NCBI GenBank assembly: GCA_013695765.1
Contig: JACCZW010000089.1
Location: forward strand, 1 to 33,495
Source of the DNA: Gammaproteobacteria bacterium
GTDB lineage: Bacteria; Pseudomonadota; Gammaproteobacteria; JACCYU01
Length of the DNA: 33,495 nt
Direction of reading: 5' to 3'
This document shows positions 4,803 through 25,205 of the stretch, one piece after another. The notes beneath the pieces are model-generated. The model saw only the letters and a list, made by a program, of their open reading frames with translations, was not told the origin of the DNA and ran no database searches. Numbering within the stretch: position 1 is the first letter of the stretch; each line of letters begins with the position of its first letter. Both the position numbers and the translations under genes were made by a program.

Positions 4803-4806
4803 GGGA

Positions 4807-5658
4807 TCAGCCGTTGCGGGTCAGCGCCTCGGCGGCGTCGCTTAGCAAGGTGAGTTTGCCGCCATAGGTCTTGCGTAAGTTGTCCTCGTTGAAGACCTCG
4901 TCGGTTGGCCCATGCGCGACCACCCGCATGTTCATCAGGATCACGTAGTCGAAATATTCGCGCACCGTTTGCAGGTTATGGTGCACCACCAGCGCGGTCT
5001 TGCCCGCCGTTCGCAGATTGTGCAGCAGACCGACGATCGCCTTTTCGGTCGCCGCGTCCACCGCGGCGAAAGGCTCGTCCATCAGGTACAGGTCCGCCTC
5101 CTGCGCGAGCGCGCGGGCGAGAAAAGTCCGTTGCTGCTGCCCGCCCGAAAGCTGACTGATCTGGCGATCGGCCAGGTCGGCGATGCCGACACGATCCAGC
5201 GCCGCGCGCGCGGCCTCGCGGTGTCGGCGCGTCACGGGCAGGCACCAGCCGATCTTGCCGTAGCGCCCCATGGTCACCACATCCAGGGCGCTGACCGGGA
5301 AGTCCCAATCCACGCTTTCGCGCTGAGGCACGTACCCGACTCTTCGACGGTTCCTGCGATACGGCTCGCCGAACACGCGCACGCGACCAGACACGCTCGG
5401 CACCAGATCCATGACCGCCTTGATGAGGGTGGTCTTACCTGCGCCGTTGGGCCCGATCACGCCCACCAGTCGGCCTTCGGGGACGTCCAGCTCCACTTCC
5501 CAGAGCACCGGCTTGCGGTAATAGGCCACGGTCAGATCATGGATACTCAGCGGCGCGGACGGTGGCCGCTTTTCCGCGGCGTCAGCGCGCGTGGCGCCCT
5601 TGCCGCTGACAGACTGGATCGCTTCGCGCAGGCTGGTGGCTAGCGCGGGTTTATTCAT
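4807..5658 (-). CDS. Mn/Zn-type ABC transporter ATP-binding protein
   Basis: 283-residue ATPase energising the two permeases encoded downstream. Walker A is GPNGAGKTT (about residue 71), the signature is LSGGQQQR, Walker B is LYLMDEPF and the switch His lies in VVHHN. The Q-loop segment VPQRESVDWDFPVSALDVV and MGRYGKIG is typical of the manganese/zinc (ZnuC/MntB) group rather than siderophore or sugar ATPases. An N-terminal extension of about 38 residues before the ABC fold is low in complexity and of unknown role; a later start is conceivable, but no better in-frame start is evident. The gene overlaps the end of the binding-protein gene by 8 nt and is separated from the fused permease by 4 nt. 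Confidence 0.93.
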   Translation of the reverse strand: MNKPALATSLREAIQSVSGKGATRADAAEKRPPSAPLSIHDLTVAYYRKPVLWEVELDVPEGRLVGVIGPNGAGKTTLIKAVMDLVPSVSGRVRVFGEPYRRNRRRVGYVPQRESVDWDFPVSALDVVTMGRYGKIGWCLPVTRRHREAARAALDRVGIADLADRQISQLSGGQQQRTFLARALAQEADLYLMDEPFAAVDAATEKAIVGLLHNLRTAGKTALVVHHNLQTVREYFDYVILMNMRVVAHGPTDEVFNEDNLRKTYGGKLTLLSDAAEALTRNG

Positions 5659-6664: not shown

Positions 6665-6753
6665 GCCTGCGGCGATCGGGCGACGGATGCTGTACATGTT
6701 GAATACCATTGCAGTGAGAAGGATTGCACATTGCCAGGCCGCTTGGCGGCGGC

Positions 6754-7680
6754 TCATAACCGGAACGAGGTGCCGACGAACACGCTAAAGTCGTCCGCGT
6801 CGTTCGATGGGCTGGCGGTGCCGCCGAAATCCAGGATCCAGTCATCGTTCATTGCATATGTGAACCCCGCGCTGCCGATGGCCTGATATGCGGCGCCGGT
6901 GTCGTGCGGCGCGATGCCGACGTATTCGACATACGCCCCGAGATTCCCGGCGACGGCGTGGCCTAACGCGGCGGTGTGGACAAATTCGATGCCGTAGTCG
7001 TCTTCGCCCCCGTTATAGACGACGTCCACTTCCGCCATGAGACTAAGCCCAAAGCCGCCGGGCAGCCCTGTCGCCAGCGGGAAGATGACCCCGCCCTCGA
7101 CGTGATCGTTACTCAGGTCGTCCGACCCGGTCGGGAACTTCACAAACGGCATGATCGCAAACGCGGTACCGCCAAGGCCGGGCGGCGCCAGACCATCGTT
7201 GCCCCACAGGTTGATCTTCAGGCGCAGCTGGGTGTCGTCACTGAATCCATCAGCGACGTCGGCGTTGCTATTCCCTTCCGTCTCCTGTCGCTCATAAGGC
7301 GTGAACACGAACTGGAGATCGACGTTGTTCAGCAGACCGACTTTGATGTTGCCGGGCAGAACGCCGAACGAATCGGTTCTGATGCCGCCGTCATCGTTAT
7401 AAGCGTATGCCGCCAAGCTTAACTCAAACTGGAAGTGGCCGGCATCGACCGTGTAAGGGCTTTCCGTCGTATCGGGGCGGTCGGTGCTCATCTCCCGCAT
7501 CAGTTTTTCCGGCGTCGGGTAAAAAATCGTGAATTGCCGCTTGTCTGCCGCCGGGGCGGATGGGTATCCACGGTTCGACGATTCCGCGCGCATCCCATCG
7601 AAAATCCTGCCTTCCCCCATGACGCTTCCACAGACAAAAGCATTCCCCGAAGCGATCACAATCCAGATATATAATTTCAT
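6754..7680 (-). CDS. Outer-membrane beta-barrel protein, MetA/phenol-degradation-like family
   Basis: Exported protein of about 308 residues whose start ATG at 7680 gives a signal peptide (MKLYIWIVIASGNAFVCG). The frame stays open upstream to a TTG at 7710, which would spoil the signal. After a conserved entry motif (STDRPDTTESPYTVDAGHFQ) come alternating amphipathic beta-strands, and it ends in aromatic-terminated strand FVGTSFRL, as expected for a barrel. It resembles the transporter-like family often called MetA pathway of phenol degradation (PF13557), whose substrates are mostly unknown. As first gene of the metal ABC operon, with its stop overlapping a possible start of the binding-protein gene, it may let the metal cross the outer membrane. 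That role is inferred from position only. Confidence 0.8.
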   Translation of the reverse strand: MKLYIWIVIASGNAFVCGSVMGEGRIFDGMRAESSNRGYPSAPAADKRQFTIFYPTPEKLMREMSTDRPDTTESPYTVDAGHFQFELSLAAYAYNDDGGIRTDSFGVLPGNIKVGLLNNVDLQFVFTPYERQETEGNSNADVADGFSDDTQLRLKINLWGNDGLAPPGLGGTAFAIMPFVKFPTGSDDLSNDHVEGGVIFPLATGLPGGFGLSLMAEVDVVYNGGEDDYGIEFVHTAALGHAVAGNLGAYVEYVGIAPHDTGAAYQAIGSAGFTYAMNDDWILDFGGTASPSNDADDFSVFVGTSFRL

Positions 7681-7810
7681 TAGGCTAATCCAAACTGGCT
7701 TGGATAGCAAAACTACTATCTTGATTTATCAAAGTCAACAGTACGACTAATCAAAACTTACCCTGTCAACGACTCCGATCAACTCGTGATAGACTGCCGA
7801 TGAGGCGCTA
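7681..7810. promoter_or_regulatory. Divergent promoter region with operator-like dyads for the metal-uptake operon and its DtxR-type regulator
   Basis: The gap between two divergent starts contains two inverted repeats: ATCCAA-N6-TTGGAT (7688-7705) and TTGAT-TT-ATCAA (7721-7732). On the minus strand a possible promoter for the operon has -35 TTGATT (7749-7754), an 18-nt spacer and -10 GATAAA (7725-7730), the last inside the second dyad. A repressor bound there would block the operon. The sequence GTCAAC occurs twice (7734-7739, 7765-7770). A TGAGG ribosome site (7801-7805) serves the plus-strand regulator. The dyads and their positions are seen; binding by the adjacent DtxR-type protein is inferred. 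Confidence 0.5.
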
Positions 7811-8503
7811 ATGACAAGCATTACCGTTGAGAATTATCTGAAGCACGTTTACGAGGAGCAACAACTGCTGGGCGCCGAGACGGATCTCGTGCCGGTCGGA
7901 CGCGTGGCAGCGGCGATGGGCGTCACCGCGGGCACCGCAACTTCGATGGTCAAGAGCCTGGCGAAAGCCAGGCTGATCCGCTACGAGCCGCGGCGCGGCG
8001 TGCGGCTGACGGACTCGGGCGCCAGGATTGCATTACAAGTGGTGCGGCGACACCGGCTCATCGAGTCGTTTCTGGTCAAGGCGCTGGGGCTGGACTGGGC
8101 GGAAGTCCACGCCGAGGCTGAAGAACTGGAGCATGCCATCTCCGACAAGGTGCTTGCGCGCATCGACGCCTATCTAGGTCATCCGGCGGCCGATCCGCAT
8201 GGCGATCCTATCCCGCCACATGCCGGCAGGCTTCCACGCCAGAACGTGACGCGCCTGACCGATTGCCGGACCGATGTTCCGTTGCGGATCGCGCGTGTTT
8301 TAAATCAGGACCCGGATTTTCTGCGTTACGTGGCCAGTCACGGCCTGACACCCGGTGAGTCCGTCACGGTCGCGCCCCGAGAGCCCGCCGCCGATGCGGT
8401 CACGATACGCGCGGGCGCTCGCGAGCCGGTGACGCTGGGCACTGCGGCCGCCGCGACCATCCTCGTGGAGGCCGGGAGTCTCGATGACGGTCAAGGCGCG
8501 TAA
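7811..8503 (+). CDS. mntR: DtxR/MntR-family metal-dependent transcriptional regulator
   Basis: 230 residues. The N-terminal winged helix (VGRVAAAMGVTAGTATSMVKSL, then GVRLTDSGARIA) is followed by the dimerisation/metal domain typical of the family (RRHRLIESFLVKALGLDW, then ELEHAISDKVLARIDAYLGH and DPHGDPIP). A C-terminal FeoA/SH3-like domain runs from about residue 150 to 225. The family represses uptake genes when loaded with Mn2+ or Fe2+. Divergent placement from the metal ABC operon makes that operon the obvious target; Mn is favoured over Fe by the MntR-like wording, but this is not certain. The ATG has TGAGG 5 nt upstream. The adjacent fused permease carries a second DtxR-like module, so this locus encodes two potential metal sensors. 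Confidence 0.9.
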   Translation: MTSITVENYLKHVYEEQQLLGAETDLVPVGRVAAAMGVTAGTATSMVKSLAKARLIRYEPRRGVRLTDSGARIALQVVRRHRLIESFLVKALGLDWAEVHAEAEELEHAISDKVLARIDAYLGHPAADPHGDPIPPHAGRLPRQNVTRLTDCRTDVPLRIARVLNQDPDFLRYVASHGLTPGESVTVAPREPAADAVTIRAGAREPVTLGTAAAATILVEAGSLDDGQGA

Positions 8504-8554
8504 AGTCACTGATCGTAATCGCTATGCGCGGCGACGAAGCTGTTATTGGTCTGG

Positions 8555-9967
8555 CTACGCGATGGCGACGAGATAATAACCCATGCCCACCAGCGCGCTG
8601 CCCAATAAGGTCGGGATCATGCCGAGCTTGAAGCGCAGCAGCGCGATCATCGCGCCCGCGGCGATAATCAGCGGCACCGGCCGCAACGTGTCCCACACCG
8701 GAATCAGCAGGCGCATGCCGAGCGCATGTTGCTCGTAAACCTTGCCGAATACCGTATGCAGCGCGAACCACACGGCCAGGTTCAGCACCACGCCGACCAC
8801 CGCGGCGGTGATACCGGACAACGTGGTGCTCAGCGCCCTGTTGCCACGCAAAGCCTCGATGTAGGGCGCGCCGAGGAAGATATACAGGAAACAGGGCACA
8901 TAGGTCACCCAGGTCACCAGCACTGAAGCGAGCACGCCGGCCCACAGCGGGTCCAGCATGCCGGCGTCGCGGTACGCGCCCATGAAACCCACGAACTGGA
9001 CAACCTGGATTAGCGGGCCGGGCGTGGTTTCGGCCATGCCCAGCCCGGTCAGCATCTCGCCGGGTTGCAGCCAGCCATAAGTGTTGACCGCCTGCTGCGC
9101 GATGTAGGCAAGTACCGCGTACGCGCCACCGAAGGTCACCACCGCCACCTTGCTGAAGAAGATGCCGAGCTGCGTGAAAATGTTGTCCGTGCCCAGCGTC
9201 ACATAGAGCACGATGAGCGGTGTGAACCACAAGGTCAGGCACAATGCCGTGATCCCTAGCGCGCGGCTTAAGCTCGGGTGCGTGTGGATCTCGCCCTGGT
9301 AGACGACTTCCGAATCGATGTTGCCACCGCTTGTGTCGCCATGGCCGCGAATGACATAAAAAGTATCCGGCCAGATGCGCCCGCCGCTGAAGCCGACGAG
9401 TCCGGCGCCGATAATGATCATAGGGAATGGAACCTGGAAAAAGAATATGCCGATGAACGCGACCGCGGCGAGCCCCACCAACACCCGATTTTTGAGCGCC
9501 CGCGAGCCGATCTTGAGCACCGCCTGCACCACCACGGCGAGCACCGCCGGAGTCAGCCCGAAGAACAGCGCCTGCACCACACTAATCTCCTGATAACCCG
9601 CATACAGGATGCTCAAGGCCAGAATCGAAACGAAGCCGGGCAACACGAACAATATGCCGGCCGCCAGTCCGCCCAGGGTCTTGTGCAGCAGCCAGCCGAT
9701 GTAAATCGCGAGCTGCTGGGCCTCGGGCCCCGGCAGAAACATGCAGTAGTTCAATGCATGCAGAAAGCGGTTCTCATCGATCCAGCGCTTTTCTTCGACC
9801 AGAATTCGGTGCATGACCGCGATCTGCCCTGCGGGCCCGCCGAAGCTCAGCAACGCTACCCTTACCCACACTCGGAACGCCGCGGCAAAGGATACTTCAC
9901 GCGCAGGTCCATTCTGTGGTGATGCAGCTGAACCGGCGTCAGCTGTGATGCTGGTCGTCTCGCTCAT
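8555..9967 (-). CDS. chrA: Chromate efflux transporter, long CHR family
   Basis: 470-residue inner-membrane protein that exports chromate from the cytoplasm. The N-terminal half starts after about 25 polar residues with FRVWVRVALLSFGGPAGQIA and contains the family stretch CMFLPGPEAQQLAIYIGWLL. The second half repeats the pattern (VVTFGGAYAVLAYIAQQAV, then GMAETTPGPLIQVVQFVGF), so both homologous CHR domains are present and the length is normal for the two-domain form. The start ATG has GAGGA about 7 nt upstream. It follows chrB on the same strand after an 82-nt gap that contains TTACAAG (10009-10015), a heptamer also present in the chrB operator region. Confidence 0.95.
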   Translation of the reverse strand: MSETTSITADAGSAASPQNGPAREVSFAAAFRVWVRVALLSFGGPAGQIAVMHRILVEEKRWIDENRFLHALNYCMFLPGPEAQQLAIYIGWLLHKTLGGLAAGILFVLPGFVSILALSILYAGYQEISVVQALFFGLTPAVLAVVVQAVLKIGSRALKNRVLVGLAAVAFIGIFFFQVPFPMIIIGAGLVGFSGGRIWPDTFYVIRGHGDTSGGNIDSEVVYQGEIHTHPSLSRALGITALCLTLWFTPLIVLYVTLGTDNIFTQLGIFFSKVAVVTFGGAYAVLAYIAQQAVNTYGWLQPGEMLTGLGMAETTPGPLIQVVQFVGFMGAYRDAGMLDPLWAGVLASVLVTWVTYVPCFLYIFLGAPYIEALRGNRALSTTLSGITAAVVGVVLNLAVWFALHTVFGKVYEQHALGMRLLIPVWDTLRPVPLIIAAGAMIALLRFKLGMIPTLLGSALVGMGYYLVAIA

Positions 9968-11012: not shown

Positions 11013-11060
11013 GGTAACGAATGCTACATTTCTTGTAGCGTCTATTACAAGACTGAATGC
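11013..11060 (-). promoter_or_regulatory. chrB promoter with overlapping inverted repeats (candidate ChrB operator)
   Basis: Two perfect 6-bp inverted repeats overlap here: GCTACA-N5-TGTAGC (11023-11039) and CTTGTA-N8-TACAAG (11032-11051). They share the central half-site. On the minus strand TGTAAT (11044-11049) is a good -10 hexamer and lies within the second repeat, so a transcript would start near 11037, inside the first repeat. No good -35 is seen upstream, where an A/T run occurs instead. Symmetry and position are direct observations; ChrB binding is inferred. Confidence 0.55.
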
Positions 11061-11178
11061 AAAATTTTTTTAGCGCAGCTCGCCGTATCTTTTGCCGTTC
11101 TCAGCCCTAAAACATCGAGTCCGCGGAAGGCGGGCTATGTTCGAATGCCGGCGGTGATTCAGTGGCTGCGTTTAGATG

Positions 11179-12252
11179 TTATTTGTCTTGCCCATAGTCA
11201 TTGTTTTCAGTAGGTGCTCTAAAGCTGACGATGAATACGGCACCGCCGCTGGGATTTTCTGTAATTTCTATCCCGCCGGCGTGCGCGCGCATGATGTCGC
11301 GCACGATGGAGAGCCCCAGACCAGCGCCGCTGCGACGCTCCCCACGGCCGCGCCAGAATCGCTCGAATATCTGCTCACGCAAGTCTTCGGGAATGCCCGG
11401 TCCTTGATCCGCGACACGAATACTGCCGGGAGCAACCACATTCACCCTGATCTCCCCGCCGGACGGACTGTGGGCGACGGCATTCTCGATGAGATTGCGC
11501 ACGGCATCCCTGATCGCATCCGGATTGCCGCTGATGCAAACGGGCGCATCGTCCGCATCTAGTCCCAGATTGCAGTTCTTCCGCAGGGCGAGCGGCGCCA
11601 GCGCGCTGATCTCGTCCGCGACCAACGCCGTCAAGTCGGTCGGCTGTGACGTATCCAAGGTCACACTGTCCAGGCGGGCCACACACAGCAGTTGGTCCAC
11701 CAAACGATTCATGCGCGCCACGTCGTCGCGCAACGCCTGAATCTTGCCATTGCCCTCCAGCACGTCGAGGCCAGCCGTCAGGATCGCCAGCGGCGTGCGC
11801 AACTGATGCGCGGCATTCGCCGTGAAGCGGCGTTGCTGCTCCATGCCGACCTCGAGTCGGCCTAGCGCCTGATTGACGGCGCGCACCAGCGGAACGATCT
11901 CGGAGGGAAGCCGCTCGGAGGTCAGGCGTACGCTGACGTCTCGCGGACCGATGCCGCGGGCCTGCGCGGAGACTTCGCGCAAGGGCCGCAAACTTTGGCG
12001 CAAGCTGAAAATCCCGATCAGCAGCATCAAAACGGCAACGACCGGAATCAGCCACGCCACATCGGAGAGAAACTCCTCCACCACTGCGTGCGCGAAATCT
12101 TCGTCAGTCTGGGTCTCCGCCACTGGGGCTGAGCGTGCTGTCTCGCGCGCTTCGAGGAACACGCCGATCGCGAGAATAACCGCCGCGAGCGCGAACACGG
12201 CCGCCAATCGCCAAGCCAGCCGGAACTGAAGGGACTGCCGATCGAATCTCAA
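11179..12252 (-). CDS. Two-component sensor histidine kinase
   Basis: 357-residue inner-membrane kinase. A first membrane segment (about residues 13-33), a short periplasmic loop and a second segment (about 66-84) lead into a HAMP linker. The phospho-acceptor His149 lies in NAAHQLRTPLAIL. The ATPase domain shows the N box NLIENAVAHSP, the G1 box VADQGPGIP, the F box FERFWRG and the G2 box GAGLGLSIV. The start is TTG, overlapping the response regulator stop (TTGA), so translation is probably coupled. The loop is only about 30 residues, typical of kinases of the QseC/PmrB/CzcS type. The ligand is unknown; metal stress is suggested only by the surrounding genes. Confidence 0.9.
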   Translation of the reverse strand: MRFDRQSLQFRLAWRLAAVFALAAVILAIGVFLEARETARSAPVAETQTDEDFAHAVVEEFLSDVAWLIPVVAVLMLLIGIFSLRQSLRPLREVSAQARGIGPRDVSVRLTSERLPSEIVPLVRAVNQALGRLEVGMEQQRRFTANAAHQLRTPLAILTAGLDVLEGNGKIQALRDDVARMNRLVDQLLCVARLDSVTLDTSQPTDLTALVADEISALAPLALRKNCNLGLDADDAPVCISGNPDAIRDAVRNLIENAVAHSPSGGEIRVNVVAPGSIRVADQGPGIPEDLREQIFERFWRGRGERRSGAGLGLSIVRDIMRAHAGGIEITENPSGGAVFIVSFRAPTENNDYGQDK

Positions 12253-12932
12253 GGCGCGGCGTCCACTTCAGCAAGCAGATAACCGATCCCGCGCACGGTG
12301 TGGATGCGAATTGAAACACCCGCCTCCTCCAGCCGTCGGCGCAGATGATGGACGTGCACCGGCACGGGGTTCGAGGCTGGTTCGGCGTCGAAGCCATACA
12401 GTTTTTCTTCTAACACGGCTCGTGGCACGACCCGTCCCTGGCGACGCATGAGTTGTTCTAAGACAGCGAGCTCCTGACGGGAGAGATCCACGCGCCGTTC
12501 GGCGATTCTCACCTCGCGTCCGATGCTATCGAAGCTGAGATTTCCTGCCGTCAAGATCGTGCCTAAAGCGGCGCCCGGGCGTCGCAGCAGCGCCTTGACT
12601 CGCGCGAGCAGTTCGGCCATCGCGAACGGCTTGACCAGATAATCATCCGCGCCGCCGTCTAAACCGGCGACACGATCCTCGATTGCGTCGCGCGCAGTCA
12701 GGATAAGTACGGGTAGCTCACTGCCACGGCGGCGCAGGCCGGCCAGCAACGCAAGGCCGTCGCCATCCGGCAAACCCAGATCCAATATGCCGGCATCGTA
12801 ACGCACCGCCCGCAAAGCACCGTCGGCCGCCTGTAGCGTGTCTAAGGCGTCGACCACGAAGCCGTCCCGGCTCAGGCCCTCGCTCACCGTCTCCGCGAGT
12901 CGCCATTCGTCTTCCACCAACAAAAGCCGCAT
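12249..12932 (-). CDS. OmpR-family response regulator
   Basis: 227 residues from the ATG at 12932, which yields the standard receiver start MRLLLVEDE; a TTG 18 nt further upstream is less likely. The receiver domain has the acidic pair at 7-8, phospho-acceptor Asp51 in GILDLGLPDGDG and the Lys in YLVKPFA. The C-terminal winged helix (about 130-220) includes LSRQELAVLEQLMRRQGRVV and HHLRRRLEEAGVSIRIHTVRGIGYLL in its two parts. It is of the QseB/PmrA/CzcR type. The kinase is encoded immediately downstream with overlapping stop and start. The divergent PepSY-like gene is a plausible target, because TTTAAT-N5-GTTAAA direct repeats lie upstream of it. Confidence 0.92.
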   Translation of the reverse strand: MRLLLVEDEWRLAETVSEGLSRDGFVVDALDTLQAADGALRAVRYDAGILDLGLPDGDGLALLAGLRRRGSELPVLILTARDAIEDRVAGLDGGADDYLVKPFAMAELLARVKALLRRPGAALGTILTAGNLSFDSIGREVRIAERRVDLSRQELAVLEQLMRRQGRVVPRAVLEEKLYGFDAEPASNPVPVHVHHLRRRLEEAGVSIRIHTVRGIGYLLAEVDAAP

Positions 12933-12989
12933 GTTTATCTCGCCCGTCAATCCGCCGCCGCTAATGTAACAGAGCGTACGGCCCAGATT

Positions 12990-13030
12990 GACGCATTTAA
13001 TTCTGTGTTAAACAAAGCCGTATAGAGTCA
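12990..13030 (+). promoter_or_regulatory. Candidate promoter and PmrA-like direct repeat upstream of the PepSY-like gene
   Basis: TTTAAT (12996-13001), a 5-nt spacer and GTTAAA (13007-13012) form TTAA half-sites 11 nt apart, the spacing used by PmrA/QseB-type regulators. A -10-like TATAGA follows at 13021-13026, so a bound regulator would occupy the -35 area. The second half-site deviates from the consensus at its outer bases, and TTTAA/TTAAA can equally be read as an inverted repeat. Regulation by the adjacent response regulator is inferred. Confidence 0.35.
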
Positions 13031-13070
13031 TCGCTCACTTCTACCAGAGTCTGAATCAAGGAGTTTAACC

Positions 13071-13400
13071 ATGAACCTGAAATCCAGTCGATCCATGCTC
13101 AAAGGCGCGGCTTTCACCGCCGGTCTGGGCATCGCGCTAAGTACGCCCGCCCTGGCCGATGACGTAAAAGAGCAAGAAATCTCGATGCAGGATCTGCCGT
13201 CAGCAGTCGCCGAGAGCGTGCAGAGCGCGCTGGGCGACAAGCAGGCGGAAGAAGTCGAGAAGATCAGTTACGAGGGAATCGTGTTGCTCTACGAAGCCGA
13301 GTACTACAAGGGCGGCAAAGAGTACGAGGTCTACGTCTATCCCAACGGCAAAGTCGCGGCCAGGCATGCTCACGAGCAAGAAGAGGAAGAAGAAAGCTAA
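13071..13400 (+). CDS. Exported PepSY-like small protein with acidic C-terminus
   Basis: 109-residue exported protein. A signal peptide with hydrophobic core LKGAAFTAGLGIALSTPALA precedes a PepSY-like fold of about 70 residues: an alpha helix (DLPSAVAESVQSALGDKQAE) then paired beta-strands (YEGIVLLYEAEYYKGGKEYE, then VYVYPNGKVAARHA). The tail is an acidic run with two His residues before it, which could bind cations. The ATG has AAGGAG 7 nt upstream. It is divergent from the two-component genes and followed by a strong terminator, so it is transcribed alone. Small PepSY proteins next to metal-responsive or antimicrobial-responsive two-component systems are common; the exact role here is unknown. 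Confidence 0.8.
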   Translation: MNLKSSRSMLKGAAFTAGLGIALSTPALADDVKEQEISMQDLPSAVAESVQSALGDKQAEEVEKISYEGIVLLYEAEYYKGGKEYEVYVYPNGKVAARHAHEQEEEEES

Positions 13401-13422
13401 GCCCTTCTGGGTGTTTCAACTG

Positions 13423-13452
13423 GGGACCTGCCGCGAGCAGGTCCCTTTCTTT
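13423..13452 (+). terminator. Rho-independent terminator after the PepSY-like gene
   Basis: A perfect 9-bp stem GGGACCTGC / GCAGGTCCC (13423-13431, 13437-13445) with the 5-nt loop CGCGA is followed by TTTCTTT. It lies 22 nt after the stop codon of the PepSY-like gene. Confidence 0.9.
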
Positions 13453-13514
13453 AATGAACCTAGGATTCAGCAGAGCTCTTCGTAGAGCTGTTGGTCGCAG
13501 CCGTAAGGATGGAC

Positions 13515-14858
13515 ATGGACAGGATATTTTCCACCTTACTGATTGTCGCGATCGCCTTTCTGGCGTTCGTCGGCGGCGCCTTCGTCGTGTTGACGAAGGT
13601 TTTTCCGTATGACTACTTCAATAACGCCTATCAGGCGATGGATGCGCTTTACCATCAGCAAGAGGACTATCAGACGCCGTATCAGACCAACCTGTGGAGA
13701 CCCGCGAGAACCGGACAGCGCGGTGTGACGATTCACAAGGCCGGCAAGGCCTACGATGGTCTTACGCTCTACAACTCGAGCCATGCGCAAAAGGCTTTCC
13801 TGATCGACATGGACGGCAAGGTGGTGCATGAATGGAGCCTGCCGATCCGCGACATCTGGGAGGACCCCAACCGGGAACCGCGGCCCGATGCGTTCGTCGC
13901 CTGGGATTACGTGTACATGTACCCTAACGGCGATCTGCTCGCGATGTACGCCGGCGCCGGCGACACGCCCTGGGGCTATGGTCTGGTCAAGATGGACAAG
14001 GACTCCAGGGTGATCTGGAAGTATTGGAATCACGTGCATCACGATCTGGATATTGCCGCCGACGGCAAGATTTATGTGCTGACCAACGCCATTCGCAACA
14101 ACCAAATCGAGGGCTACGAGCATCTGACCCCGCCGCGCATCGACGATTACTTGGTGGTGCTGTCGCCCGACGGCAAACAGCTTAAAAAGGTATCCATTCT
14201 CGACGCCCTGTTGCGCTCCCGTTACGGGCGCATGATGCGCGCCGGACCGTCCTGGGATATCAAGCAGGATTTCCTGCACACCAACTCCATTGACATCGTC
14301 GACCGTACGACCGCCGCCAGGCTACCGTTCGCCAGGGTAGGCCAGGTGCTGCTGTCGCTCAGAGACATCGACACCCTCGCGGTGCTCGATCTTGAAAAGG
14401 AGGAAGTCGTCTGGGCGCTGCGCGGGCCCTGGCACCGGCAGCACGACGCGCAGCTGTTGCCTAACGGCCATATCCTGCTGTTCGACAACTACGGTCACTA
14501 CGACGATGGCGGGATGTCGCAGCTCATCGAATTCGATCCAGTAACGCTGGAAAAAGTCTGGGTCTATGCCGGCGACGAGAAGCAGCTGCTGGAAAGCGGT
14601 ATCCGCTCGACCGAGCAGCGGCTCCCCAACGGCAATACCTTGATTACGGAGTCCGATGGCGCCCGTCTGCTCGAGGTGACGAAGAAAGGCGAAATCGTGT
14701 GGGAATTCGTCAATCCGGTCAGGGCCGGCGAGAACGACGAGCTGATACCCGTGCTCCTCTTTGGTACCCAGCGTGTAGTGCCAGAATCCCTCGACCCCGA
14801 GTTCTTGGCATTCATTAACGAGTCGGAACGACCGACGCGGGCGAGCGCAGGCAAATAG
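13515..14858 (+). CDS. Membrane-anchored arylsulfotransferase-family (ASST) protein
   Basis: 447 residues from the ATG at 13515, chosen because AAGGA lies 5 nt upstream; in-frame TTG (13491) and ATG (13509) are worse placed. An N-terminal hydrophobic helix (STLLIVAIAFLAFVGGAFVV) anchors a large periplasmic domain. The rest shows repeated beta-propeller blade signatures (AFLIDMDGKVVHEWSLP; VYMYPNGDLLAMYAG; HDAQLLPNGHILLFDNYG; RLPNGNTLITES). Conserved His positions in WNHVHHDLDIA, FLHTNSIDI and RQHDAQLLPNG match the arrangement of arylsulfotransferase (PF14269/PF05935-like) proteins. PAPS-independent members move sulfate between phenols; many family members have no known substrate, so activity is not claimed. 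It is followed 55 nt later by the DUF1259 gene. Confidence 0.8.
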   Translation: MDRIFSTLLIVAIAFLAFVGGAFVVLTKVFPYDYFNNAYQAMDALYHQQEDYQTPYQTNLWRPARTGQRGVTIHKAGKAYDGLTLYNSSHAQKAFLIDMDGKVVHEWSLPIRDIWEDPNREPRPDAFVAWDYVYMYPNGDLLAMYAGAGDTPWGYGLVKMDKDSRVIWKYWNHVHHDLDIAADGKIYVLTNAIRNNQIEGYEHLTPPRIDDYLVVLSPDGKQLKKVSILDALLRSRYGRMMRAGPSWDIKQDFLHTNSIDIVDRTTAARLPFARVGQVLLSLRDIDTLAVLDLEKEEVVWALRGPWHRQHDAQLLPNGHILLFDNYGHYDDGGMSQLIEFDPVTLEKVWVYAGDEKQLLESGIRSTEQRLPNGNTLITESDGARLLEVTKKGEIVWEFVNPVRAGENDELIPVLLFGTQRVVPESLDPEFLAFINESERPTRASAGK

Positions 14859-14913
14859 TCGCTGTGTTTGCTTTACTCTGAGTTTTTCAATTGTCAGTAA
14901 CGGAGTTCTTTTC

Positions 14914-15837
14914 ATGCTGAACCAGGGCCAGTCTCGAAAGACGCACACCTATTGTCTTGCCGTCCTCATCGCGCTCGTGAGCGCAGCAACCACAATCGCC
15001 TACGCGCAGTCCACCAACCTAGACACCAAGTCCATCAACGGCGCGGCCGGTAAGCAGACGAGTGTCGAAGACGATGGCGTAGTGCGCATCGAGTGGAGCC
15101 GCGATGACGTGCCGGTCACGGTGGACGGCATGCCGCTACCACCGCCCGCCGGATTGGGAAGCTGGGCCGCGTTTAAGGCCGTGCCCGGCGGCGTGATGGT
15201 CATGGGCGATACCGTGGTTTTTGAAGATGAGATCACGCCGGCCATGGACGCCGCCTTTGCACATGGCTTGGAAGTCACGGGCCTACACAACCACTTCATC
15301 TTCGATCGTCCACCGGTGTATTTCATGCACGTCGGCGGGCATGGCGAGGGCGAAGCGCAACTAGCCAAAGGCGTGCGCGCCGTATGGGATGCGGTCAAAG
15401 CCGTGCGTGAGGAAAACCCGACGCCGACCGAGCGTTTCGCGGGGCGCGTGCCGGAGCAAACGGATGAAATATACGTCGCGGCCCTCAAAGAGATTCTGGA
15501 CGCCCAGCCTGATATAAAGAACGGGGTAGTTAAGTTCAGTTTCGGGCGCGAGGCTGCGATGCACGGCGCGCCGGTTGGCGAGTCGATGGGGCTCAACACC
15601 TGGGCCGCGTTCATGGGCAATTCAGAATGCGCCGCGGTCGACGGCGACTTCGCCATGACGGTCGAGGAAGTGCAGCCGGTCATGCATGCGTTGCGCAAGG
15701 CGGGCATCCATATCGTGGCGCTGCATAATCACATGATCGGCGAAGCGCCGCCGTACTTCTTCCTGCACTACTGGGGCAAAGGACATCCAGAGGCCCTTGC
15801 TCGTGGCGTCCGCGACGCCTTGGATAGTCAGAGGTAA
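14914..15837 (+). CDS. Secreted tandem-domain DUF1259 (LppY/LpqO-like) protein
   Basis: 307-residue exported protein with a signal peptide ending near AYAQS. It contains two copies of the same unit. Copy 1 (about 75-165) reads GSWAAFKAV, then VTGLHNHFI, PPVYFMHVGGHG and AKGVRAVWDAV. Copy 2 (about 225-305) reads NTWAAFMGN, then IVALHNHMIG, PPYFFLHYWGKGH and ARGVRDALDS. The repeated LHNH and HxxGxG motifs look like metal or acidic-ligand sites. The family (DUF1259) has no established biochemical function. GGAG lies 8 nt before the ATG. It probably shares a transcript with the ASST-family gene. Confidence 0.8.
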   Translation: MLNQGQSRKTHTYCLAVLIALVSAATTIAYAQSTNLDTKSINGAAGKQTSVEDDGVVRIEWSRDDVPVTVDGMPLPPPAGLGSWAAFKAVPGGVMVMGDTVVFEDEITPAMDAAFAHGLEVTGLHNHFIFDRPPVYFMHVGGHGEGEAQLAKGVRAVWDAVKAVREENPTPTERFAGRVPEQTDEIYVAALKEILDAQPDIKNGVVKFSFGREAAMHGAPVGESMGLNTWAAFMGNSECAAVDGDFAMTVEEVQPVMHALRKAGIHIVALHNHMIGEAPPYFFLHYWGKGHPEALARGVRDALDSQR

Positions 15838-15937
15838 CTAGACCTAGATGTGTCAGATATACATGGGTGTGGTGTACACGGAGCGTTCCTACTGTCGTAG
15901 GCCGCCACCACATCATACTTACCTAACATTTCGGCGT

Positions 15938-15967
15938 TTGACAGTCTGATCGAGTGTGCCGTACATT
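15938..15967 (+). promoter_or_regulatory. Candidate sigma-70 promoter for the czc-type efflux run
   Basis: A perfect -35 TTGACA (15938-15943), an 18-nt spacer and -10 TACATT (15962-15967, 4 of 6 matches) lie about 60 nt before the first gene of the efflux cluster. A small hairpin, CCTAC-TGTC-GTAGG (15888-15901), lies upstream in the gap after the DUF1259 gene but has no T-run, so it is not called a terminator. No clear metal-regulator operator was recognised. Confidence 0.5.
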
Positions 15968-16026
15968 ATTTGGCTCCCAACATCTTCCTTCGATCATAAC
16001 CCGCAAAGGTTTTGCCGAACCGTCTG

Positions 16027-16398
16027 ATGCCAAAGCATCGAATCATCCTCTCGCTTTGCCTGATGCTGGCGCTGCTTGTCGTGCAGATCGCGGGCCTGCA
16101 CTTTCACGTGCACGCAGCGGCGCCGTGGAACGACGCATTGCTTCCTGCGGTCGTACATGCGGAGCACTCCGACACGCACCATAGTTCTCATGAGGACACG
16201 GCGGCCATCGACCTGCCCGTGGTCGGCTTCTGGAAAAGCGCCGACCAGGGTTCGAATTTTCTCGCGTTGCTGACGGTAGCTTTCGCGTTGCTTCTAGTTA
16301 CACGTTCTCGCATTGTACTTCGCACCAGACTCGAAACTCGCCCACGTTTTCATCGACCTGTATTTCTGCGGCCGCCCTTGCGCGCGCCACCCCGCTAA
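16027..16398 (+). CDS. Small His-rich membrane protein at the head of the czc cluster (CzcI-like)
   Basis: 123 residues from the ATG at 16027; a TTG at 16012 in the same frame is possible. A signal-anchor (IILSLCLMLALLVVQIAG) precedes a periplasmic His-rich stretch (LHFHVHA, then HAEHSDTHHSSHED). A second hydrophobic helix (FLALLTVAFALLLV) and a basic Arg/Pro-rich tail end the protein. Small exported His-bearing proteins often sit in front of czcCBA-type operons, where CzcI is thought to modulate expression or bind metal. Homology to CzcI itself is not clear, so this is a placement-based name. The czcC-like gene starts 72 nt later. Confidence 0.65.
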   Translation: MPKHRIILSLCLMLALLVVQIAGLHFHVHAAAPWNDALLPAVVHAEHSDTHHSSHEDTAAIDLPVVGFWKSADQGSNFLALLTVAFALLLVTRSRIVLRTRLETRPRFHRPVFLRPPLRAPPR

Positions 16399-16470
16399 GC
16401 CTCCACTGTAGTTTTCTGCTCTGAACCTGTTTCTCGCGCCACGGCGCGGGCCCATGCCTGTGGGGGCAAT

Positions 16471-17760
16471 ATGCATTATTCCTTTACGCCTGGTCGCGGT
16501 GCGTCTGCGTTATGGCGCGGCTTCTTTATCGCTTTCTCGTTGAGCGCGGCGGTCGGCGCCTCGGCCGATGCGCAAGATGGCGCTGGCGGTGCCTTGACAT
16601 TGACGGAAGCCATCGTGCGCACCTTGGCAAGAAATCCCGAACTGCAGGCCGGCGGTTATACTTTGCTTAGCGCGGATGCATTCATCGATCAGGCGGGATT
16701 GGCGCCGCCACTGGTCGCAGGCGGCGAAGTCGAGAACTTCGCCGGCACCGGTGCACTCAGCGGCGTGCAGAGTACAGAAACGACCTTGCGCCTGAGCCGC
16801 GTCATCGAACTAGGCGGCAAACTGGATGCGCGCGTGCTGGCGGCGGACGAAGCTCGCGCGCTGGCGGCGGTGGAACAGCAGGCGCTGAGGTTGGACGTGC
16901 TGGCCGAGGTCGCGCGCCGATTCGTGCTCGTGGTAGCGGATCAGGAACAATTAGCGCTTGCCCGGCGCGCCACCGAGCTTGCGGAGCGCACGTTGGATCT
17001 TACAGGCGAGCGCGTGGCGGTGGGCCGGGCGCCGGTTACGGAACAGAATCGCGCTCAGATCGCGCTGGCCCGCGCGCGCATAAACGAGGAACACGCCGAG
17101 CACCAGCTCAAAAGCTCACGCTTATCGCTTTCCATTCTGTGGGGTGCGACCAGGCCCGCTTACGCACTAGCGTCGGGAGCGCTTTACACCCTTTCATCGA
17201 TGCCGAAGTTTCCGAAACTCATCGCCAATCTGGAAAAGAATCCGGACTTAGCAAGTTTCGTCACGATAGGGCGCCTTAATGAAGCGCGCCTGCGCCTGGC
17301 CGAAACGCAACGTACGCCGGACGTGCAGTTCAGCGGTGGCGTGCGGCGACTGGAGCAATTTGATGACCAGGCATTTGTATTCTCCTTATCCGTTCCGCTC
17401 GGCATGAATCAGCAGGCCGCCCCCGAAATAGCCGCGGCCTCCGCCGATTACGCGCGCGTCGAATTTGATGCCCAGGCCAAGCGGTTGGAACTGCGGGCGC
17501 TGCTCTTCGGCATCTACCAGGAACTGCTGCACGCCCGCACGCAGGCTGAAACGTTCCGCGAAGAGGTGCTGCCACAGGCTGAGGAAAATCTGCGACAAAC
17601 CGAAGAAGGTTTCCGCGTGGGTCGCTATTCATTTCTGGAACTGACAGTCGCGCAGGCCGAGTTGCTTGACATCGAGCGCGAAGCGATCCAGGCAGCGCAG
17701 GATTATCACAACTATATCATTGAAATCGAACGCCTGACCGGCGGCGCCGTGACGGAGTAA
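16471..17760 (+). CDS. czcC: Outer-membrane efflux channel of CzcC/TolC type
   Basis: 429-residue outer-membrane factor with an N-terminal signal (FFIAFSLSAAVGASADAQ). Two OEP repeats follow: the first opens with LTLTEAIVRTLARNPEL, and each has long coiled-coil-forming helices rich in Ala, Glu, Gln and Arg (AEVARRFVLVVADQEQLALA; RALLFGIYQELLHARTQAET split across its hairpin). SLSVPLGM marks a beta-strand of the barrel. The family forms the trimeric exit duct for CzcB-CzcA. The ATG follows a G-run (16462-16466) at short spacing, and the stop is 13 nt before the czcB-like start. Confidence 0.9.
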   Translation: MHYSFTPGRGASALWRGFFIAFSLSAAVGASADAQDGAGGALTLTEAIVRTLARNPELQAGGYTLLSADAFIDQAGLAPPLVAGGEVENFAGTGALSGVQSTETTLRLSRVIELGGKLDARVLAADEARALAAVEQQALRLDVLAEVARRFVLVVADQEQLALARRATELAERTLDLTGERVAVGRAPVTEQNRAQIALARARINEEHAEHQLKSSRLSLSILWGATRPAYALASGALYTLSSMPKFPKLIANLEKNPDLASFVTIGRLNEARLRLAETQRTPDVQFSGGVRRLEQFDDQAFVFSLSVPLGMNQQAAPEIAAASADYARVEFDAQAKRLELRALLFGIYQELLHARTQAETFREEVLPQAEENLRQTEEGFRVGRYSFLELTVAQAELLDIEREAIQAAQDYHNYIIEIERLTGGAVTE

Positions 17761-17773
17761 GGGGAGAACTACT

Positions 17774-19018
17774 ATGCAAATAACCATCGGTTTATTTTTC
17801 TCGATTGCGGTTCTGATGGCCGGCTGCGAATCACCAACCAGCACCGACGAAATGGACGAGGGAGCGGCCCATGCCGCCGAGGCGAAAGCGGAGACTGAAG
17901 GGCCACACGGCGGAAAACTGCTGCGCGATGGCGACTTCGCACTTGAAGTTACGATCTTCGAGACGGGCGTACCGCCAGAGTATCGCATTTATCCCTACTT
18001 GAAAGGCCGTTCACTGCCGCCGGAAGAAGTCTCGCTCACGATTGAGCTTGCTCGCCTCGGTGGTGACGTGGACCGCTTCGCGTTTTCGCCGCAAGGAAAC
18101 TATCTGGTCGGCAACGGCCGGGTGCGCGAGCCGCATTCGTTCGATGTGAGCGTGCGCGCGGAGCACTTCGGCCAGAATTTTTTTTGGGCATACGAATCTT
18201 ACGAGGGCCGCACCACCATCGCGCCCACGGCGGCGGCGGCGGCCGAGATTGGCGTTGAACACGCGGGCCCCGCGACGATCCGCCAGACGCTCGCGCTGAC
18301 CGGCTCTGTGGGCATGATGCCGGAACGGCTGGCGCATGTGCGTGCGCGCTATCCGGGTGTGATCAATACCGTCGAAACACGGCTGAACGAGATGGTCAAG
18401 GCCGGCAACACGCTCGCCACGGTGCAGAGCAACGAGAGCTTGCAGACCTACTCGATAACGGCACCGGTAAATGGCGTCGTGCTGGAGATGGAAGCGACTG
18501 CCGGCGAGGCAACCGCAAATGAACCGCTGTTCGTGGTGGCCGACCTCTCGCAAGTGTGGGCGGAGCTGGATGTATTCGCGCGTGACAGGGCGCGCGTTAA
18601 ACCTGGCCAGCCAGTACGTATCGAGAGCCTGGATGGTGACCGGGTCGCGGAAGGCCACATCCAGATGCTGTCGCCGAACGCATCGGTGATAAGCCAAAGC
18701 GTGCGGGCGCGCGTAGTGCTGGATAACAAGAATGGAGACTGGCCGCCCGGCCAGTTCGTGCGTGGTTTGGTCACGGTCGCTGAGACCACAGTGCCGCTAG
18801 CTGTCGAGCGCGCGGCCGTGCAGCAGTTCCGGGATTTCCAGGTGGTATTCGCGCGCGTGGGTGATACCTATGAGGTGCGCATGCTGGAGCTGGGAAGACA
18901 GGGCGGCGAACACGTAGAGGTGCTGGAAGGTATCGAGCCCGGCGACGTTTATGTCACCGAGAACAGTTATCTCATCAAGGCCGACGTCGAGAAATCCGGC
19001 GCCTCGCACGATCATTAA
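17774..19018 (+). CDS. czcB: Membrane-fusion lipoprotein of heavy-metal RND efflux (CzcB)
   Basis: 414 residues. A lipoprotein signal ends in LMAGC, with Cys18 the lipidated residue. An N-terminal extra domain (about 40-140, starting at GPHGGKLLRDGDFALEVTIF) is present in a subset of heavy-metal adaptor proteins. The usual adaptor then follows: a lipoyl/barrel-sandwich half (VRARYPGVINTVETRLNEMV), its return (ITAPVNGVVLEMEATAGEA) and a beta-barrel domain (WAELDVFARDRARVKPGQ). The C-terminus ends SHDH. It couples the inner-membrane pump to the outer channel. There is hardly any alpha-hairpin between the lipoyl halves, as in several HME adaptors. Spacing to czcA is 12 nt. Confidence 0.93.
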   Translation: MQITIGLFFSIAVLMAGCESPTSTDEMDEGAAHAAEAKAETEGPHGGKLLRDGDFALEVTIFETGVPPEYRIYPYLKGRSLPPEEVSLTIELARLGGDVDRFAFSPQGNYLVGNGRVREPHSFDVSVRAEHFGQNFFWAYESYEGRTTIAPTAAAAAEIGVEHAGPATIRQTLALTGSVGMMPERLAHVRARYPGVINTVETRLNEMVKAGNTLATVQSNESLQTYSITAPVNGVVLEMEATAGEATANEPLFVVADLSQVWAELDVFARDRARVKPGQPVRIESLDGDRVAEGHIQMLSPNASVISQSVRARVVLDNKNGDWPPGQFVRGLVTVAETTVPLAVERAAVQQFRDFQVVFARVGDTYEVRMLELGRQGGEHVEVLEGIEPGDVYVTENSYLIKADVEKSGASHDH

Positions 19019-22216
<3,198 letters not shown>

Positions 22217-22277
22217 GCACAGGAGCATTGTTATTGCAAAAAATATCTCGCCTCTGAGCGACTCCACATACCGGCGG

Positions 22278-23615
22278 TTGTTCAGTGCGCAGGTGCTTTC
22301 GCTGACCGGCACGGGGCTGTCATCGGTCGCGCTGGCCCTGCTGGCCTATGAGCTTGCCGGCGCCAGCGCGGGCGCGGTACTGGGGACTGCACTGGCGATC
22401 AAGATGGTTGCTTATGTCGGCATCGCGCCCGTAATCGGCGGCATCGCGCACCGCCTGCCGCGCAAGACGCTGCTCATTTCAATGGATGCCCTGCGGGCGA
22501 GTGTGGTTCTGCTGTTTCCCTTCGTCGACGCCGTGTGGCAGGTTTACGTACTGATCTTTCTGCTGAACGCGGGCTCCGCCGCGTTCACGCCGACTTTTCA
22601 GGCGGTGATTCCTGACATATTGCCGGATGAAGCCCGTTACACCCGCGCGCTGTCGCTCTCCCGTCTCGCCTACGATCTTGAAAATCTGCTGAGTCCCCTG
22701 CTCGCCGCGCTGTTACTCACCTTTATAACGTTTGATGCGCTGTTTGCGTTGAACGCGTTGAGTTTCATCGCATCAGGCGTCCTCGTGATGCTGACGGTAC
22801 TGCCACGATCGGCGACGAGCGATCGGCCGGCGGGTTTCTGGTTTAACCTGAGTTTCGGCATAAGCGCCTACCTGGCCACGCCACGGCTCCGGGGACTGCT
22901 GGCCTGCAATCTGGCGGCAGCCGCCGCCGGCGCCATGGTGATTGTCAATACTGTGGTGTATGTCCGTAGTCAGCTTGGCGGAGACGGAACGGATGTCGCA
23001 CAAGCTATGGCGGCGTTCGGCGCGGGTTCAATGCTGGCGGCGCTAATGTTGCCCCGCCTGCTCGATCGAATCGCGGACCGTCCGGCGATGCTGGGTGGCG
23101 GGCTGTTGGTTGGCGTGGTGCTGGCGCTGAGTGGCACGGTGATGCCCGGCTTTGCCGGTCTGCTCGCTATCTGGTTCGCCGCTGGAATAGGTTACTCCTT
23201 GCTGCAAACGCCGGCTGGTCGGCTGCTGCGACGCTCGAGCCGGGAAGGTGATCGCGCAGCATACTTTGCGGCTCAATTCGCTTTATCCCACGCCTGCTGG
23301 CTGTTGACCTATCCGCTCGCGGGCTGGCTAGGCGCCGTGTTTGATCTGCGCATGGCATTCGTGCTCCTGGCGGCCCTAGTCGGACTCGCGGTTATTGCGG
23401 CAATGAGGTTATGGCGAGCCCCGGATGCTTTCGAAGTGGAGCATCTGCACGAAGACGTAGAACATGATCATCCGCACACGCATGACGAGCACCATCAACA
23501 CGTACATGAACGTTCCGAAGGGTCGGAGCCGCATCGTCATCCGCACCGGCATGCGGCGCTACACCATCGGCACGAATACGTGATCGACCTGCATCACCAG
23601 CGCAGGCCGGGCTAG
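22278..23615 (+). CDS. MFS-type transporter with His-rich C-terminal tail
   Basis: About 445 residues, 12 hydrophobic segments, major facilitator family (GGIAHRLPRKTLLISMDALR loop; NAGSAAFTPTFQAVIPDILP; SLSRLAYDLENLLSP). The tail after the last helix (from about residue 385) carries about 19 His in 60 residues. The start given is the first conventional codon, a TTG. The frame is open upstream and reads SPLSDSTYRRLFSAQ through this position, which resembles the normal start of this family. AGGAG at 22221-22225 sits 7 nt before an in-frame ATT (22233), so translation may begin there on a non-standard codon. It follows czcA by 16 to 61 nt and precedes two CDF genes, so metal export is a reasonable inference but not established. 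Confidence 0.85.
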   Translation: MFSAQVLSLTGTGLSSVALALLAYELAGASAGAVLGTALAIKMVAYVGIAPVIGGIAHRLPRKTLLISMDALRASVVLLFPFVDAVWQVYVLIFLLNAGSAAFTPTFQAVIPDILPDEARYTRALSLSRLAYDLENLLSPLLAALLLTFITFDALFALNALSFIASGVLVMLTVLPRSATSDRPAGFWFNLSFGISAYLATPRLRGLLACNLAAAAAGAMVIVNTVVYVRSQLGGDGTDVAQAMAAFGAGSMLAALMLPRLLDRIADRPAMLGGGLLVGVVLALSGTVMPGFAGLLAIWFAAGIGYSLLQTPAGRLLRRSSREGDRAAYFAAQFALSHACWLLTYPLAGWLGAVFDLRMAFVLLAALVGLAVIAAMRLWRAPDAFEVEHLHEDVEHDHPHTHDEHHQHVHERSEGSEPHRHPHRHAALHHRHEYVIDLHHQRRPG

Positions 23616-23651
23616 CGCGCCGTCGCGGATGACTTGAAAGGCAAACCGTCA

Positions 23652-24398
23652 ATGACCCACGCGCACGAACATGCAAACGAGCAGACTGGCAGTCAGCGTC
23701 GCCTGCTCGCCACGCTGGTATTGACGATCGTATTCGCGATCGTCGAGGCTATCGCCGGCTGGCTTGCGGGCTCGCTCGCGTTACTGGGTGACGCAGGACA
23801 TATGCTCACAGATTCAGCGGCGCTTGGCATCGGCGCCGCGGCTGCGTGGCTGAGTCAGAAGCCGCCTTCCGCCCGGCACACTTACGGCTTCAAGAGAGCC
23901 GAGATCATCGGCGCGCTCATCAACGTGCTGTTTATGGTCGCGATCGTGGCCGCCATCTGCGTAGCGGCTATCGATCGCCTCATGCAGCCGCAGCCGGTGG
24001 CGGGCGTCACGGTCATGATCGTGGGCTTCATCGGGCTGCTGATTAACCTGCTCGCAGTCTGGGTACTGCGCGGCGGCGGTGAAAACCTCAACGTGCGCGG
24101 CGCGCTGCTGCACGTGCTGGGCGACCTGCTTGGCTCGGTCGCCGCGCTGACGGCAGGCGCGGTGATCTGGATTACGGGCTGGACGCCAATCGATCCCTTT
24201 CTGTCGATGTTCATCGGCCTGCTGATCCTCGTCTCCAGCGTAAGCCTGCTGAGAGAAGTGCTGCACATACTGATGGAGGGGGTACCGCCGCACGTCGATC
24301 TGGACGAAGTCGCCCGTGCGATGGTGTCCGTAAACGGCGTTATATCCGTACATGATCTGCACGTCTGGTCAATAGGTTGTCGGCGCACGTGTTTATAA
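23652..24398 (+). CDS. CDF-family zinc/cadmium exporter, C-terminal domain lost by frameshift
   Basis: 248 residues from the ATG at 23652 (a TTG at 23634 is possible). The six-helix CDF core is intact. A His-containing N-terminus (THAHEHANEQ) precedes the TM2 site DAGHMLTDSAAL, giving the His/Asp pair, and TM5 HVLGDLLGSVAALTAG has His and Asp, the H-D/H-D set of Zn-type CzcD/ZitB transporters. The cytoplasmic domain starts normally (VISVHDLHVWSI) but then reads GCRRTCL and stops. The missing domain continues in another frame from 24377. Comparison with the family pattern suggests loss of about 16 nt (six codons minus two bases) near 24375. The membrane part might still transport, since some CDFs lack this domain. 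Confidence 0.85.
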   Translation: MTHAHEHANEQTGSQRRLLATLVLTIVFAIVEAIAGWLAGSLALLGDAGHMLTDSAALGIGAAAAWLSQKPPSARHTYGFKRAEIIGALINVLFMVAIVAAICVAAIDRLMQPQPVAGVTVMIVGFIGLLINLLAVWVLRGGGENLNVRGALLHVLGDLLGSVAALTAGAVIWITGWTPIDPFLSMFIGLLILVSSVSLLREVLHILMEGVPPHVDLDEVARAMVSVNGVISVHDLHVWSIGCRRTCL

Positions 24399-24568
24399 CG
24401 GACATGCGCTGCTGGCCGCCAGCGCTGGCCCTGCTCAAGAGTCTGTTGGCAAGCCGGTTCAAGCTGACACATACGACCTTGCAACCCGAATCGACGGCGC
24501 AAGACACATGCGGCGAATCCTCCTGCGGACCAGAGTTCCGAGAGTCCGAGAACGATCGCGCTGGATAG
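24377..24568 (+). pseudogene. Out-of-frame remnant of the CDF C-terminal domain
   Basis: Read in its own frame this encodes LSAHVFITD, then WPPALALLKSLLASRF and LTHTTLQPES, the end of the CDF cytoplasmic domain (compare the usual LSAHV..., HHVTLQPE pattern of CzcD-like proteins). It joins the preceding gene if about one and a half turns of missing DNA are restored. It ends with a short Cys-containing tail (DTCGESSCG). It has no ribosome site of its own and is not expected to be translated separately. Confidence 0.75.
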
Positions 24569-24596: not shown

Positions 24597-25205
24597 ATGT
24601 CCGCATGTACTCACGACATCGGATCAGACCAGAAGCCGTCAGGTCGCGAACGCGCGACCACACTCAAAGTGGTTCTGGCGATTAACGGAGTGATGTTTCT
24701 GGCCCTTGTCGCGACGGGTTTGTGGGTCGATTCGTCGGCGCTGCTGGCGGATTCCGCCGATAATCTGGGCGATGCATTGGTTTACGCCATCAGCCTTTTC
24801 GTCGCGTATCGGAGCCTGCGCTGGCGAGCGGGCGCAGCATTTGTCAAAGGGCTCCTGCAACTCGCGTTCGGCCTTGGGATCATGATCGGCATCGTCGTAA
24901 AGCTGCTGGGACATCCCGAACCGGTGGGGCTCGCGATCATGGCCGTGGCCGCCGTCGCGTTGATCGCAAACCTGACCTGTCTGATGCTCTTGCAACGTCA
25001 TCGCGGCGAAGACGTTAACATGCGCTCGGTATGGCTGTGCTCGCGCAACGACGTGATCGGCAACCTTGCCGTCATCGTCTCCGGCGCAGCGGTATGGCTG
25101 ACTGGCAATTTCTGGCCCGATCTGATCGTTGCCGCGTTGCTGGCTACTGTGTTTCTGCACACGTCTTACGAGGTACTGCGCGAGTCAATGCATGCCTGGA
25201 GCTGA
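24597..25205 (+). CDS. Short CDF-type cation transporter without C-terminal domain
   Basis: 202 residues with five or six hydrophobic segments (LKVVLAINGVMFLALVATGL; FVKGLLQLAFGLGIMIGIVV; AVAAVALIANLTCLMLLQ). TM2 carries an acidic cluster, LLADSADNLGDALVYAIS, and TM5 carries SRNDVIGNLAVIVSG, in which Asn/Asp replace the His/Asp of Zn-type proteins. The protein ends right after the last helix (EVLRESMHAWS), so there is no cytoplasmic dimer domain; this is a recognised short CDF subgroup. It follows the broken CDF gene on the same strand by about 200 nt, which hold that gene's remnant. Confidence 0.85.
   Translation: MSACTHDIGSDQKPSGRERATTLKVVLAINGVMFLALVATGLWVDSSALLADSADNLGDALVYAISLFVAYRSLRWRAGAAFVKGLLQLAFGLGIMIGIVVKLLGHPEPVGLAIMAVAAVALIANLTCLMLLQRHRGEDVNMRSVWLCSRNDVIGNLAVIVSGAAVWLTGNFWPDLIVAALLATVFLHTSYEVLRESMHAWS

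Follow-up and report, generated by a model that had tools for sequence, protein, structure and literature searches.

An NreB-family MFS gene with a histidine-rich tail in a czc-type efflux operon of a gammaproteobacterium

Which metal is handled by an MFS protein whose gene stands inside a czc-type operon, and what does its histidine-rich tail contribute? Such a gene is present in the window (the whole 33,495-nucleotide stretch of gammaproteobacterial DNA analysed here). An earlier note had placed it directly after czcA, counted about 19 His in a 60-residue tail and listed two CDF genes behind it, all of which was confirmed by the reading frames, the His count and Pfam matches. Our best explanation, which we hold to be likely, is that the protein belongs to the NreB family, works in the inner membrane as a Ni(II)/H+ antiporter and has a Ni-binding cytoplasmic tail, and that its gene was inserted singly between czcA and a czcD-like CDF gene.

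The czc operon and the same site in a related genome

The operon follows the order czcC, czcB, czcA and then CDF, with an RND protein that is most similar to CzcA and the MFS gene between czcA and the CDF genes:

16471-17760, + strand: czcC-like outer membrane factor (OEP; 29.6% to CH34 CzcC)
17774-19018, + strand: czcB-like adaptor (HlyD_D23; 27.4% to CH34 CzcB)
19031-22216, + strand: czcA, RND permease (TIGR00914, 1540 bits; 58.9% to CH34 CzcA, 47.4% to NccA)
22233-23615, + strand: nreB-like MFS gene, 460 aa, probable ATT start (MFS_1 match, 7e-33)
23652-24398, + strand: CDF gene 1 (czcD-like), with a frameshift close to its C-terminal domain (Cation_efflux; frame break at CzcD residue 248)
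24597-25205, + strand: CDF gene 2, short form, 202 aa (Cation_efflux, 2.3e-20)

Upstream, an ORF at 16012-16398 occupies the czcI position and has no BLAST match to CH34 CzcI. Since the adjoining CzcA is nearest to the Zn/Co/Cd type, the local context alone is not diagnostic of nickel. The earlier note also held that MFS proteins are not standard parts of the Czc system, and this stands for the CH34 czc operon, which has no MFS gene; as a broader statement it does not, for an order in which a His-tailed MFS gene comes after RND genes has been published before. The order nccCBA-nreB, an RND system plus an NreB-type MFS, is given in passages of PMC7060636 and PMC11647585, and a Ni-induced RND/NreB/HupE cluster of Sphingobium is described in part of PMC5557971. 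In addition, the record of an Acinetobacter plasmid has an RND operon, HupE and an MFS gene consecutively.

A genome of the same genus (G001) has an orthologous chrA-chrB-ORF-czcC-czcB-czcA-CDF1-CDF2 region, with czcA at 83-84%, in which CDF directly follows czcA and no MFS gene lies in between. Positions 15934-22167 and 23638-24554 of the window were paired by blastn with 1668-7887 and 7962-8894 of the same-genus locus L169, leaving one segment unmatched:

22168-23637, no strand: segment with no counterpart at the G001 site (blastn gap, flanks aligned)

The nreB gene is therefore a one-gene difference from the G001 site. Neither G001 nor a second genome, G002, has an NreB homologue beyond a distant MFS protein at 31%, and the flank alignment showed no obvious target duplication. 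Gain of nreB here as a single gene is likelier than its loss in G001, because in a separate draw of 369 genomes from the class no more than 11, the window's own genome counted, had a match to the family at 1e-60.

Two further differences were seen at this region. About 4.9 kb of the window between chrB and czc (11013-15933), with a two-component system, an ASST-like gene and a DUF1259 gene, is absent from L169, and the region is therefore a mosaic. As well, czcA of L169 is split into two frames at about 5882, near residue 375.

Family membership and probable substrate

By sequence comparison, the MFS protein belongs to the NreB/NirA family. BLASTP gave identities of 58.0% over 424 residues with the "putative NreB" of pKAZ5, 57.5% over 407 residues with NreB of Cupriavidus metallidurans CH34 pMOL30, 53.4% over 464 residues with Streptomyces mirabilis NreB and 52.3% over 430 residues with NirA/NcrA of Klebsiella plasmids (ncrABCY). 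Core similarity is thus 52-58% over at least 400 residues, and the His-rich C-terminus of the family is present as well. The matches in plasmid records are annotated NreB and NirA/NcrA, and TIGR00900 is the top match for the window protein and for the reference NreB/NirA proteins, its cut-off being passed by the CH34 copy only. The predicted structure points in the same direction:

22263-23411, + strand: transmembrane core, predicted helices of residues 11-393 (AlphaFold2 model m860dfbdb8ef3, mean pLDDT 88.9)

The model has 12 predicted helices and finds its best Foldseek matches among MFS antiporters, for example MdfA and NorA; only MFS models match the core, which does not qualify as an EamA core. 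Many invariant residues are retained in it, such as D148, E150 and H353. A new kind of Czc component was considered and rejected, since the MFS family is NreB. The suggestion of an additional divalent-metal exporter, made earlier from the sequence alone, is supported and, given the 52-58% identities, can be sharpened to that of an NreB-family nickel exporter, nickel being the probable export substrate. Deletion of nreB in S. mirabilis lowered Ni tolerance from 35 to 17.5 mM in TSB, and its expression in S. lividans or E. coli raised Ni tolerance with a slight effect on Co, as reported in passages of PMC9195940. NreB of A. xylosoxidans is described in part of PMC4186839 as Ni-induced, with a His-rich C-terminus, and as decreasing Ni accumulation.

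The surroundings of homologues were surveyed at 80 loci kept from at least 523, a sample that leans towards tails, since one of the query peptides was taken from the tail. A His tail, counted from at least 6 His, is present in 79 of the 80 (long, with at least 14 His, in 22, short in 57 and missing in one), and some gene of the metal panel lies within 3 kb in 66; homologues found mostly away from metal genes and lacking the tail, which would have told against the earlier note, were therefore not what the survey returned. Panel matches are concentrated near the gene, at 0.61 per kb within 1.5 kb vs 0.07 per kb at 4-10 kb. Ni-type genes (NreA, RcnA, YqaA, HupE/NicO) lie within 3 kb of 59 of the homologues, and an NreA-type regulator within 0.5 kb of 48. 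An RND permease was found within 10 kb at 19 loci, where the czcA-panel matches include weak RND homologues of 23-25% (L005, L018, L055), and an RND gene directly upstream on the same strand at only three (L004, L045, L077). Since most members of the family have no RND gene next to them and Ni-type neighbours are usual, the notion of a metal-buffering partner of the pump gained no specific support, and the His tail does not go along with a czcA neighbourhood. The long tail was also tried as a mark of czcA context and rejected, an RND permease lying within 10 kb of 3/22 long-tailed vs 16/57 short-tailed loci.

No NreA/NcrB-type (PF02583) regulator is encoded at the window locus; the feature is common in the family and was not treated as defining. 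The sole PF02583 protein of the genome lies on a different contig (C26) and presumably resembles CsoR, as judged by motif, and NreA-type control is not evident in this genome. A PF02583 regulator is also absent beside the nreB genes of S. mirabilis and pMOL30.

Several named systems can be set beside the locus. NreB of the pMOL30 ncc-nre determinant is also an MFS protein directly after an RND permease, its gene starting 8 bases past the RND gene nccA and being named nreB in passages of PMC7060636, PMC7019866 and PMC11647585; however, this protein (L097:7969-9195), in contrast to most of its relatives, has no His tail, whereas the window has the tail, a CzcA-type RND and CDF genes following. 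The related ncc-nre determinant of A. xylosoxidans 31A pTOM9, with its NreB, is likened by its published description. NreB of S. mirabilis pI, the copy in which Ni resistance was tested, resembles the window protein over its full length and in its His-rich tail, but its gene lies outside an RND operon with an ArsR-type regulator adjoining, and its tail has 11 His and a low score on the long-tail profile. NirA/NcrA differs by a short tail (6 His in 60) and by the accompanying NcrB, NcrC and NcrY. In the czc2 operon of A. lwoffii pALWED1.1, from a Ni-resistant strain, rcnR, nreB and a Ni permease gene lie between czcD and czcA according to passages of PMC5067307; as far as this description goes, the insertion there is of about 4 kb with six ORFs, compared with one gene here. 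Synechocystis NrsD (nrsBACD) is an MFS protein with a His-rich C-terminus that closes an RND operon, as given in part of PMC4284471, but it is cyanobacterial and is likened by that description.

A shift of substrate to Zn/Co/Cd, by which this NreB relative would have come to match its host operon, would suit the type of the surrounding CzcA, the two CDF genes and the lack of an NreA-type regulator in the genome. We regard it as unlikely, since the experimentally studied relative, at 53% identity, exports nickel, Ni-type neighbours prevail among the homologues, and the tail matches that of the Ni/Co exporter CnrT. For the preferred nickel exporter, the following scheme is proposed: NreB would carry cytoplasmic Ni(II), perhaps also Co(II), to the periplasm by Ni(II)/H+ antiport, and an RND pump would move periplasmic Ni(II) out of the cell, so that nreB would add nickel to a Zn/Co/Cd determinant. 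As no NreA-type regulator is evident in the genome, co-expression of nreB with czc is the simplest guess. With its empty counterpart in G001, such a locus would illustrate how one added nickel-exporter gene can broaden the set of metals handled by an efflux operon already in place.

Reading frame, start and integrity of the gene

The open frame extends from 22221 to 23615, but the codon at 22221 is AGG and not a start codon, which corrects the gene boundary noted earlier. There is no ATG, GTG or TTG in the MFS frame upstream of 22278, where a TTG forms the first canonical in-frame start. An earlier beginning is indicated by a further element:

22221-22225, + strand: AGGAG, probable ribosome-binding site (from the sequence)

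Since an ATT codon at 22233 sits 7 nt after this AGGAG and homologue alignments begin near it, ATT 22233 is likely, though unproven, as the start of the gene. Downstream, the end part of CDF gene 1 matches CzcD in a different frame, and the CDF gene of L169 is open through the point of the break; the frameshift may be either real decay or an assembly error. The missing canonical start together with this broken neighbour may reflect decay or assembly error at the locus. The two defects might also mean that the MFS gene is itself decaying and not expressed, which seems rather improbable to us given its 460 open codons, its intact invariant core residues and tail His, and the good spacing of the ribosome-binding site to ATT.

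The histidine-rich tail

The MFS protein has 21 His, of which 19 lie in the last 60 residues and two in residues 1-388 (binomial P of about 7e-15 for the tail enrichment, with 3% His assumed). The tail comprises the following elements:

23433-23477, + strand: predicted beta hairpin 1 (residues 401-406 and 409-415; two separate predictions)
23442-23612, + strand: long His tail, residues 404-460, in a register common to other NreB and to CnrT
23481-23501, + strand: HDEHHQH motif between the hairpins (residues 417-423; sequence and tail alignment)
23532-23576, + strand: predicted beta hairpin 2 (residues 434-440 and 443-448; two separate predictions)

The alignment of the 22 long tails, which come from different families, has 17 invariant columns around HDEHHQH, and 15 of these are His. 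Because 12 helices are predicted and MFS proteins share a general topology, the C-terminus is predicted to lie on the cytoplasmic side, which fits the earlier proposal of a cytoplasmic metal-binding tail. AlphaFold predicted four tail strands whether it modelled the entire protein (pLDDT about 58-80 in this part) or the tail alone (mean 75, pTM 0.41); the fold of two beta hairpins is put forward as a hypothesis, His-rich stretches being able to mislead such predictions. A fold search with the isolated tail returned three matches, the best at E 7, and thus no PDB counterpart, a PDB sequence search gave two weak matches, and tblastn of the 69-residue tail against plasmids, with the low-complexity filter on, gave none. 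The tail would bind metal through fixed-register His on the two predicted hairpins, and would most likely raise efflux by gathering Ni close to the route of transport. A mainly buffering protein, whose tail sequesters cytoplasmic metal and whose transport is secondary, would accommodate the density of tail His, but is very improbable in view of the many invariant residues kept in the core, the tail-less members of the family, the altered tolerance upon NreB deletion or expression, and tail His that stand in a fixed register and not in variable repeats.

Since some homologues have no tail, it is not essential to the NreB family. Tail-less homologues include CH34 NreB, L069 and L111-L113, the last three being 42-44% NreB homologues from one genus (genomes G319, G220 and G104) with no His tail at all. 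Among the 10 other positive genomes in the draw of 369, five have long tails, one a short tail and four none; three of these four belong to one genus, and one long-tailed case, L089, repeats the contig of L004. In the work of Grass et al. (2001), the NreB tail is reportedly not essential and contributes to maximal resistance. The idea that the long tail arose just once on the core tree was rejected, at least four changes being needed; deep forks are open, so that loss, gain and swapping are indistinguishable. In one further genome (G053, L090/L095), a 46% NreB homologue with a long tail is split by TAG, and the genes before it presumably resemble an ECF-type Ni/Co importer.

The tail is shared with another exporter. 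C. metallidurans CnrT (cnrYXHCBAT, nickel/cobalt) occupies the same slot after an RND gene and carries the long tail in full register, but has a DMT/EamA core, so that the window protein shares with it the tail alone; no significant similarity was found between the MFS NreB core and the DMT CnrT core. Searching 398 Pseudomonadota genomes with the long-tail profile at 1e-6 gave 18 places in 16 genomes: 14 are NreB-type, a count that takes in the copy in the window as well as L118 and L134, which are broken or short, and the remaining four are a different membrane protein, 46-65% to CnrT with an EamA core. Five tails score 32.8-35.1 bits against the profile, compared with -4.9 to 18.3 for nine control proteins, including RcnA and DmeF, of which NirA is the highest. 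Shuffled tails reach at most 5.8 bits when fully shuffled and 25.9 with His fixed, the observed score being attained in 0/500 of either kind for each of the five tails; together with the controls, this rejects mere His composition as the source of the similarity. Profile-profile comparison of NreB and CnrT tails gave 98.4% with E 8e-15, at low diversity. Moreover, 15 of 16 CnrT homologues found at 1e-40 in a draw of 398 genomes from the phylum have a His tail of the same layout, 11 of the 15 with the strict HD.HHQH motif. Homology of the NreB long tail and the CnrT tail is thus well supported by sequence. We found no published link between the two in a search that was thin on older primary papers, and prior notice is quite possible.

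A plausible but tentative reading is that the long tail forms a self-contained, transferable beta domain for Ni/Co binding, some 55-60 residues in length, which has passed between two unrelated exporter superfamilies, MFS NreB and DMT CnrT, whose members occupy the same operon slot. This domain might fold as predicted and act in metal delivery or sensing and not as a loose His sponge. The shared tail offers a concrete, testable object for the old question of what His-rich ends do in metal exporters; should a single module work on MFS and DMT cores alike, tail swaps between NreB and CnrT would separate the role of the tail from that of the transporter. At L135, a CnrT-like gene lies within a czcB-czcA-HupE run, much like the slot of NreB.
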